From: a bacterium
GTDB taxonomy: Bacteria; UBP15; UBA6099; DSWB01
Direction: 5' to 3'
Assembly: GCA_020061125.1 (NCBI GenBank)
Contig: JAGUYV010000258.1
Coordinates: 1-5,431, forward strand
DNA length: 5,431 nucleotides
Part shown: one piece after another, positions 2,226-4,266 of the stretch
Layout of the letters: every line of letters starts with the position of its first letter
Numbering within the stretch: the first letter of the stretch is position 1
Translations under genes and position numbers: made by a program
Notes under the pieces: model-generated
Told to the model about the DNA's origin: nothing
Databases searched by the model: none
What the model saw: the letters and a program-made list of their open reading frames with translations, nothing else

Positions 2226-2254
2226 TTGACAAAAGTCCGATTATCCATTATTTT
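2226..2254 (+). promoter_or_regulatory. Sigma70-type promoter of the tetR-aminotransferase unit
   Basis: A perfect -35 hexamer TTGACA (2226-2231) is followed after a 17-bp spacer by TATTTT (2249-2254, 4 of 6 matches to TATAAT). Transcription would start at about 2260-2263, immediately before the ATG at 2264. The tetR message would then be leaderless or nearly so. The -10 is overlapped by the left arm of the palindrome at 2252-2277, so a bound repressor would directly block RNA polymerase. Confidence 0.65.
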
Positions 2255-2277
2255 TGGACTGATATGTCAGTCCAAAA
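2252..2277. promoter_or_regulatory. Perfect 11-bp palindrome, probable TetR autoregulatory operator spanning the start codon
   Basis: The left arm TTTTGGACTGA (2252-2262) and right arm TCAGTCCAAAA (2267-2277) are exact inverse complements, separated by the 4-bp spacer TATG. The spacer contains the tetR initiation codon (ATG 2264-2266). The left arm overlaps the -10 hexamer and the predicted transcription start. TetR-family dimers typically bind inverted repeats of about this size within their own promoter, so autorepression is the simplest reading. If transcription instead began further upstream, the same bases would form an mRNA hairpin with the AUG in a 4-nt loop, hiding the start. I saw no second full copy of the palindrome in the window, only isolated GGACTG half-sites inside genes. 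Confidence 0.75.
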
Positions 2278-2923
2278 TGGCGCGAACAAAAAGGATCAGA
2301 AAAGAAAGGCTTTTCTGGAAGCCGCGAGAAAAATATTTTCCGAAAAAGGCTTCCAGTCGGCCAATGTCACCGACATTGTGTCCGAGGTGAGGTCCGGGCA
2401 GGGAACTTTCTATTACCATTTCAAGGACAAACAGGCAATCTTCGACGAACTGATGATCGGGTTTGTGGACAAGCTGCTCACGGCTCTGGCCGAGAATCAG
2501 GCGCGCTCGGCCGGGCGTCTGGCCCTGGCGAACCGGGAACTGGCCATCGAAAACGCGCGCCGCATCGCCGCCGTGTACATGGAAAACATGGATCTGGCCA
2601 CCCTCTTCTTCAGGGAATCGCGATATGTGGGCGGAACCGCCATGCAGCGCATCGAGCAGTTGTACACCATCATTTTTTCACAAATCGAGGCGGGACTGGC
2701 CGAGGGCCAGGCGCTTGGACTGGTGCGCGCGGACCTGGACCCGCGCATCGCGGCCCGGTGCTTTGCGGGAGCGGCCGAATGCGTAATTCAGCAGGAACTG
2801 CGCGCCGACGGCCCCCGGGACCTGGATCATATCGCCACGCAAATCGTGGATTTCCAGTCGCTTGGCGTTCTGGCCCCCGCGCCGCGCGAAGCGCACGCTG
2901 AAAAACATGTGTCCGGTTCCTGA
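2264..2923 (+). CDS. TetR/AcrR-family transcriptional regulator
   Basis: This is a 219-residue one-component repressor of normal TetR length. The N-terminal DNA-binding domain covers about residues 11-60. Helix 1 is at KDQKRKAFLEAARKIFSEKG, and the helix-turn-helix at about 33-52 (ANVTDIVSEVRSGQGTFYYH) ends in the hallmark TFYYHFKDKQAIFDEL. The remaining residues form a mostly helical ligand/dimer domain that I cannot assign to a known inducer class. The start at 2264 is chosen because the promoter and palindrome sit right there and helix 1 begins about 10 residues later, as is usual for the family. Longer frames from 2204 or 2162 would add a non-family N-terminus and lie upstream of the promoter. 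There is no strong SD (only GGA 5 nt upstream), consistent with a leaderless message. The aminotransferase follows after 47 bp with no terminator between, so it is a likely co-transcribed target. Confidence 0.93.
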   Translation: MSVQNGANKKDQKRKAFLEAARKIFSEKGFQSANVTDIVSEVRSGQGTFYYHFKDKQAIFDELMIGFVDKLLTALAENQARSAGRLALANRELAIENARRIAAVYMENMDLATLFFRESRYVGGTAMQRIEQLYTIIFSQIEAGLAEGQALGLVRADLDPRIAARCFAGAAECVIQQELRADGPRDLDHIATQIVDFQSLGVLAPAPREAHAEKHVSGS

Positions 2924-2970: not shown

Positions 2971-4266
2971 ATGCCCAGCACAGCGAAAACCGTACCCGAT
3001 GGCATCCACACCATGTGGCCCATCATTACGGAAGATGACAAAAAGCAGGTTATGGAAAGCCTGGAGTCGCGGATACTCACCGGCCCCTACGGGCCGCAGC
3101 TCCGGGGCGCGGAAACCGAATTCGCGCAATGGGTGGGCGCAAAGCACTGCCTCATGACCAACAGCGGCACCGCGGCCCTGCACATGGCGGTCGAGGCCGC
3201 GCAGGTCGGACCGGGAGACGAGGTCATCCTGCCCTCGTTCACCTTCCTGGCCACGGCCTTGGCCGTGCTGCACAACAACGCCGTACCCGTGTTCGTGGAC
3301 ATAGACCCGGACACATTCAATATTGACCCCTCCAAAATCAAAGCGAAAATCACGCCCCGGACCAAAGCGGTCATCGCCGTACACCTTCACGGCCTGTGCG
3401 CGGACATAGATCCCATCAAGGAAATCTGCGCCAGACACAATCTGCTGCTCATCGAGGACGCGGCCCAGGCCCACGGCGCCACCTACAAGGGGCGCAAGGC
3501 GGGCACGCTCGGGGACATGGCCATCTTCAGCGTGCAGGCCAGTAAGAACCTGCCCTGCGGCGAGGGAGGCTTTTTCGTGACCAGCAACGACGCCCTGGCG
3601 GACCGCGCCAATAAAATGCGATTGTTCGGCCAGGACGCCAGCTTCGAGGATGAAAAACTCATCAACCTCAATTGGCCCATTGACCGGTTCCGCGGGTTCG
3701 AGTCCATCATGGGCGGCTGGCAGTATCTGCCCGGGGAGCTGCCCGCGGCGCTCACGCGCTCACAGTTGCGCGCCCTGGACGCGCACAATGAAAACGCGCG
3801 CCGAAACGGCCGTTTTCTCACGGAACAGCTCAAGGATGTGCCCGGCCTGATCCCGCCGCGCATCCCCGCGGACCGCGAGACCGTGTACCACAAGTTTCGT
3901 CTGCGTCTGGACCCCGCCGCGGCGGGCGTGGATGCGCCGCCCGCGGTGTTTCGCGACAAAGTGCTGGCCGCGCTCCAGGCAGAGGGCGTGGAGTGCTGCC
4001 TCTGGGAGACCAAGCCCCTGCCCCTTCAGAAATACTTCGCCGAGCAGACCGGCTACGGCCGCGGGTGTCCTTACAACTGCGCGCACAGAAGCGAACCCGC
4101 GCCCAAGCCGCAGCCCGAAGATTACGCAAACGCCAAATCTCTTCTCGACTCCTCCCTGGTGCTCGGCTCCCATTCCTACCCCATCATCGCGCAGAGCATC
4201 GAAGTCATGGAATACTATGTCAAAGCCATCAAAAAGGTGTTTTCGGGAGTCAAAAACCTGTTCTGA
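2971..4266 (+). CDS. DegT/DnrJ/EryC1/StrS-family PLP-dependent aminotransferase
   Basis: This is a 431-residue fold-type I PLP enzyme of the sugar/cyclitol aminotransferase family. Members transfer an amino group, usually from glutamate or glutamine, to keto-sugars or cyclic ketones. Motifs in order: TGPYGPQLRGAE (37-48), the PLP-phosphate loop MTNSGTAALHMA (62-73), PSFTFLATA (88-96), PVFVDIDPDTFNID (106-119), EDAAQAHGA (162-170; Asp163 for the pyridine nitrogen, Gln166 over the ring) and FSVQASKNLPCGEGG (186-200) with the Schiff-base lysine Lys192. A Gln rather than His at 166, the GEGG and a C-terminal GCPYNC (365-370) recall the AHBA synthase/scyllo-inosose aminotransferase branch more than ArnB-type enzymes; this is a motif impression only. 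No sugar-nucleotide or antibiotic biosynthesis genes are nearby, so the substrate is unknown. The gene follows tetR by 47 bp and ends at a terminator 34 bp downstream. Confidence 0.92.
   Translation: MPSTAKTVPDGIHTMWPIITEDDKKQVMESLESRILTGPYGPQLRGAETEFAQWVGAKHCLMTNSGTAALHMAVEAAQVGPGDEVILPSFTFLATALAVLHNNAVPVFVDIDPDTFNIDPSKIKAKITPRTKAVIAVHLHGLCADIDPIKEICARHNLLLIEDAAQAHGATYKGRKAGTLGDMAIFSVQASKNLPCGEGGFFVTSNDALADRANKMRLFGQDASFEDEKLINLNWPIDRFRGFESIMGGWQYLPGELPAALTRSQLRALDAHNENARRNGRFLTEQLKDVPGLIPPRIPADRETVYHKFRLRLDPAAAGVDAPPAVFRDKVLAALQAEGVECCLWETKPLPLQKYFAEQTGYGRGCPYNCAHRSEPAPKPQPEDYANAKSLLDSSLVLGSHSYPIIAQSIEVMEYYVKAIKKVFSGVKNLF

Follow-up and report, generated by a model that had tools for sequence, protein, structure and literature searches.

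What does a perfect palindrome do when the start codon of a regulatory gene lies at its centre? The question is raised by a 5,431-nt stretch of bacterial DNA (the window), in which a tetR gene begins inside such a repeat. Its product is a TetR-family protein by domain score, with 48.9 bits for PF00440 (cut-off 24) and 37.4 bits for the C-terminal PF17932 (cut-off 26.4). The divergent strand to the left of tetR carries pstS and pstC, and to the right, on the same strand, are found genes for a DegT-type aminotransferase and an AhpC/TSA-type redox protein and the start of a KefB/C-type antiporter gene. An earlier interpretation of this DNA from its letters (the sequence-only reading) had described 11-bp arms around a TATG containing the tetR ATG, and direct inspection bears this out: TTTTGGACTGA (2252-2262) and TCAGTCCAAAA (2267-2277) are fully complementary and enclose TATG (2263-2266), with the initiation codon at 2264-2266. 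Among the short-loop inverted repeats of the window this one ranks first, the runners-up having 8-bp arms. In first-order Markov simulations, arms of at least 11 bp arose in 5 of 300 replicates of the whole window and, when the local 406 bp were simulated, in 12 of 3000, and a chance origin is thus unlikely already for the single sequence. The features discussed here are collected in Table 1.

Table 1. Coordinates of the promoter, palindrome and gene features in the window
Feature	Position	Strand	Basis
-35 hexamer TTGACA of the tetR promoter	2226..2231	+	Consensus scan; kept in all six orthologues
-10 hexamer TATTTT	2249..2254	+	Consensus scan; TATATT or TATTTT in orthologues
Perfect palindrome, 11-bp arms, centre TATG	2252..2277	.	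Sequence reading and inverted-repeat ranking
Operator core TGGACTGATATGTCAGTCCA, proposed TetR dimer site	2255..2274	.	Invariant in six orthologues
Predicted transcription start zone, leader 0-3 nt	2261..2264	+	Spacing from the -10 box
tetR, 219 aa, TetR_N (PF00440) and TetR_C_24 (PF17932)	2264..2923	+	ORF, domain search, start in orthologue L011
DegT/DnrJ/EryC1-type aminotransferase gene, probable co-transcribed partner	2971..4266	+	Begins 47 nt past the tetR stop

We compared the locus to its orthologues. A genome scan recovered five, with 57-63% protein identity and alignment from residue 1, in hosts that are unclassified bacteria (ADurb.Bin236, UBP15_UBA6099 and others). By whole-genome search these hosts share an order with the window's genome, and the six together span three families of this uncultured order; four of the six sequences come from one genus, so that the independent lineages number three, and all genomes are metagenome assemblies, 67-97% complete. 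The core palindrome sits on the start codon in the window and in all five orthologues, and a 23-nt run, TGGACTGATATGTCAGTCCAAAA, is invariant in the six sequences. The outer arm bases are broken in one orthologue (L013), and the operator-like conserved part comprises the 20 bases TGGACTGA-NNNN-TCAGTCCA. The coding part opens with 14 invariant nucleotides; the next-longest invariant run is 9 nt among the three lineages or 5 nt among all six sequences. Codons 2-4 are identical including their synonymous positions, a result with a chance probability of about 0.008 given that, past codon 6, three lineage representatives use the same codon at only 17 of 86 positions with a shared residue. The non-coding left half of the operator is conserved as strongly as the coding right half. 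The conserved left arm and the fixed synonymous positions together indicate that selection acts on the DNA, and the conservation of the repeat also excludes its chance origin. The alignment of orthologues, which the sequence-only reading had named as a test of its proposal, thus finds both arms and their position on the ATG conserved beyond coding constraint. The gene has what is expected of an autoregulated one, a palindrome in its own promoter that is conserved among orthologues.

These data bear directly on the view that the repeat is incidental, either because the residues MSVQ are kept for protein reasons or because the stem is a terminator-type hairpin. The five simulated windows with an 11-bp palindrome are in keeping with such a coincidence; the conserved left arm and fixed synonymous sites, and the same palindrome type at non-coding positions before other tetR genes (see below), refute coincidence or coding constraint alone, and we give the whole view almost no credence. 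An intrinsic terminator was rejected too, as no T-run follows the stem on either strand and the repeat is absent from the terminator list.

We next consider where the tetR transcript would begin. The promoter assumed by the sequence-only reading exists: the two hexamers are separated by 17 nt and match the consensus at 10 of 12 positions. In all six orthologues TTGACA is followed, after 17 nt, by a -10 box that ends 9-10 nt before the ATG, and from this spacing the RNA is expected to start 0-3 nt before the AUG. The tetR transcript should therefore be leaderless or carry a leader of 1-3 nt. The two marks of an AcuR-like leaderless operon, a -10 box some 10 nt ahead of the ATG and no Shine-Dalgarno sequence in a transcribed leader, are present in the six orthologues. 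The initiation codon itself is fixed by the orthologue L011, in which the reading frame is closed by a stop 33 nt ahead of the ATG and the interval holds no start codon; no other ATG, GTG or TTG was found before the HTH domain in the orthologues. A start elsewhere can thus be rejected, and the ATG at the palindrome centre, as previously proposed, is the sole possible start in L011. The repeat takes in the border of the -10 box, the predicted +1 and the start codon together, a geometry kept in the orthologues. The earlier statement that the left arm overlaps the -10 box holds for its outer 3 bp, which lie inside the hexamer, and not for the rest of the arm.

Upstream of the main tetR promoter, the window has another promoter-like match, a weaker one (2135-2163, + strand; TTCACA, 17 nt, TATTTT; 9 of 12 matches). 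It could give rise to a leadered tetR transcript, on which a GGA located within the left arm, at a distance of 5 nt from the ATG, could serve as a weak Shine-Dalgarno sequence.

It is highly likely that the palindrome serves the tetR product as a DNA operator for repression of the tetR promoter and, with it, of the probable tetR-degT operon. The repeat, its conservation, the promoter geometry, the sole possible start codon of L011 and the recurrence of the operator type at other tetR promoters are observed; that the protein binds and represses here, that the mRNA is leaderless and that degT is co-transcribed are inferred. A TetR dimer on the core would abut the -10 box on its downstream side and cover the DNA from +1 to approximately +12, so preventing either the formation of an open complex or escape from the promoter; release from the operator would be brought about by a ligand of the C-terminal domain. 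With transcription beginning no more than about 3 nt from the AUG, the start codon would come to lie at the operator centre, and codons 2-4 (S-V-Q) would represent operator sequence read as protein.

The sequence-only reading had gone further and proposed dual autocontrol from this one site, in which a DNA operator is combined with an 11-bp hairpin in longer transcripts that presents the AUG in its loop and limits tetR translation. RNA of the palindrome does fold, at -13.4 kcal/mol, a value beaten by 1 of 200 shuffles, and the weak upstream match described above might supply a suitable transcript. However, any DNA palindrome folds as RNA, so that the fold is no independent evidence, and the invariant core pairs leave no covariation to test. 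The hairpin can form only in RNA that starts further upstream than the conserved promoter start: transcripts of the conserved promoter would be without the left arm, and no hairpin appears in a fold computed from 2261. Both in the window and in L013 the upstream neighbour is transcribed divergently, and read-through from a neighbour is therefore not a conserved possibility. The relatives offer no support for the hairpin either. In addition, the palindrome is retained in paralogues ahead of the ribosome site, with no start codon inside, which points to a role at the level of the DNA. Because the translated RNA would carry the right arm only, control is expected at transcription. Of the proposed dual control, the transcriptional half is thus supported by a conserved operator-type palindrome, and the translational half fares poorly, with almost none of the left arm in the predicted transcript; we regard the combined scheme as improbable. 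A version in which the site is an operator and also hides the start codon in transcripts from the upstream promoter, such that only the short leaderless RNA is well translated, appears improbable as well.

If the palindrome is an operator for the tetR product, related regulators might use related sites. Indeed, in a paralogue from the window's genome (32% identity) TGACTGACTAATCAGTCA immediately follows the -10 box; a Shine-Dalgarno sequence comes next, and the ATG lies approximately 30 nt downstream. The counterpart of this paralogue in four related genomes has TTGACTGACTAGTCAGTC in the same arrangement. Overall, the paralogues carry TTGACTGAC-TA-GTCAGTC, or the closely similar TGACTGACTAATCAGTCA, at a near-identical place relative to the -10 box and then a leader with a Shine-Dalgarno sequence. 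The recognition helices are near-identical as well (QGTFYYHFKDK in the window protein, QGTFYYHFQDK or QGTFYYHFKDK in the paralogues). In unrelated genomes of other phyla, GACTGAC-NN-GTCAGTC again occurs in tetR promoters, 22-40 nt before the starts. The sequence GACTGACATGTCAGTC was found seven times in 386 genomes, and four of the seven occurrences lie directly before tetR-like genes (L143, L144, L145 and L148). The GACTGAC-NN-GTCAGTC palindrome is thus very probably a TetR operator type. The paralogues of the order (L134-L137, L141) and the tetR genes of other phyla (L143-L145, L148, L105, L115) share with our locus this palindrome near the -10 box and, in most cases, a GTFY-type recognition helix; they differ in having a normal, mostly Shine-Dalgarno-led leader, with the start 22-40 nt past the operator centre. 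As the operator type recurs at these promoters with no start codon inside, the peculiarity of the window's tetR is the start codon lying within its putative operator.

Among 637 unique ORFs of at least 150 aa in the fetched loci, a count that is rough since it takes longest-ORF starts, a palindrome of at least 8 bp centred on the ATG was confined to these orthologues and a single ORF that runs antisense to a tetR gene. The latter, on the minus strand of L138, was rejected on account of its antisense position. A candidate second case, L097/L148, was rejected because its reading frame ends right after MSV, the true start being further downstream and preceded by a Shine-Dalgarno sequence.

A shared operator type also raises the possibility that the site serves a different regulator, whether a TetR paralogue or some unrelated dimeric factor, and not the tetR product itself. 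Cross-binding by the same-genome paralogue is conceivable, given the similar operator in its own promoter. The site is, however, exclusive to this gene, occurring once per genome in all six gene-bearing genomes, and its outer bases are unlike those of the paralogue's site (TGGACTGA versus TTGACTGA or ATGACTGA). Self-control is, moreover, the usual case among TetR proteins. We therefore consider a foreign regulator unlikely and retain autorepression by the tetR product. In the genomes searched, the perfect core has one copy in each of the six that contain the gene and none in the other 380, and no second site with fewer than three mismatches was found in the six. A wider regulon was rejected on this basis, and the regulator encoded by tetR appears to be local in action.

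Further candidate sites were seen elsewhere. In L138 (genome G002), ACTGACATGTCAGT flanks another tetR gene (1260-1892), at 1240-1253 just before the start and at 1942-1955, approximately 50 nt past the stop; the same pair is found in G006 (L139). This suggests two operators for one regulator. The GACTGACATGTCAGTC site of L142 (1501-1516, minus strand) lies upstream of an ORF that is not obviously a tetR gene, and that of L147 (1501-1516, minus strand) follows a TTGACA-type promoter-like sequence with no long ORF close behind. Both may be further targets of such regulators. The occurrence of GACTGAC-NN-GTCAGTC in tetR promoters of unrelated phyla, mostly together with GTFY-type helices, may reflect a widespread TetR operator class.

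Which genes would be controlled from this site? The order and strand of tetR and degT are kept in four orthologous loci (L010, L011, L012 and L014), with 70% identity for degT, and in these four the pst genes are absent beside tetR; in L013 the contig ends just past tetR. As the tetR-degT pairing is retained and the pst genes are not, tetR-degT is the natural unit. Control of the divergent pst genes is unsupported, these genes not being adjacent to the orthologues.

The nearest functional parallel is AcuR of Rhodobacter sphaeroides, a TetR autorepressor that heads the acuR-acuI-dddL operon and whose mRNA was mapped to start at the AUG (PMC3017554). Its operator, TAATAGAC-n6-GTCTATTA, lies within the 36 bp upstream of the ATG and overlaps the promoter (PMC3017554). 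Both systems have a TetR-family gene in first position of an autoregulated operon (predicted in the window) with other genes downstream, a start at the AUG with no Shine-Dalgarno sequence, and an inverted-repeat operator overlapping the promoter; the 5' end is here deduced from promoter spacing. The AcuR operator is upstream of the ATG, whereas the site described here is ATG-centred and reaches into codon 4. The window protein is not itself AcuR, scoring 31.9 bits against the NCBIfam NF051457 equivalog cut-off of 247. In transposon Tn1721, the operators precede the gene, within the tetR/tetA promoter region. Tn1721 tetR is an earlier example of a TetR repressor with a leaderless mRNA, as cited in PMC3017554, a property predicted for the window gene. 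For the TetR-family protein TTHB023 of Thermus thermophilus, the published work describes palindromic sites that encompass mapped transcription starts, one listed at -7 from its own translation start and a second at -153 (PMC7022988). As given there, the palindrome is related to ours, with CTGACCG-type half-sites, but has ACCG in place of ACTG and the additional site at -153. Our literature search, mostly of papers outside subscription, returned nothing specific on this exact operator or on operators overlapping a start codon. As far as that search extends, an operator centred on a start codon, and the conservation of this centring, are new.

The mechanism proposed here, self-repression at a promoter, is an ordinary one, of which this locus would represent a tight and unusual version. 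One compact stretch of DNA would act as operator, transcription start and coding sequence at the same time, an arrangement kept across three families of an uncultured order. The paralogues, with the same operator type and an ordinary leader, provide a natural comparison for the merging of a start codon into an operator. The first residues of some repressors, here MSVQ, may be dictated by the operator and not by protein function.
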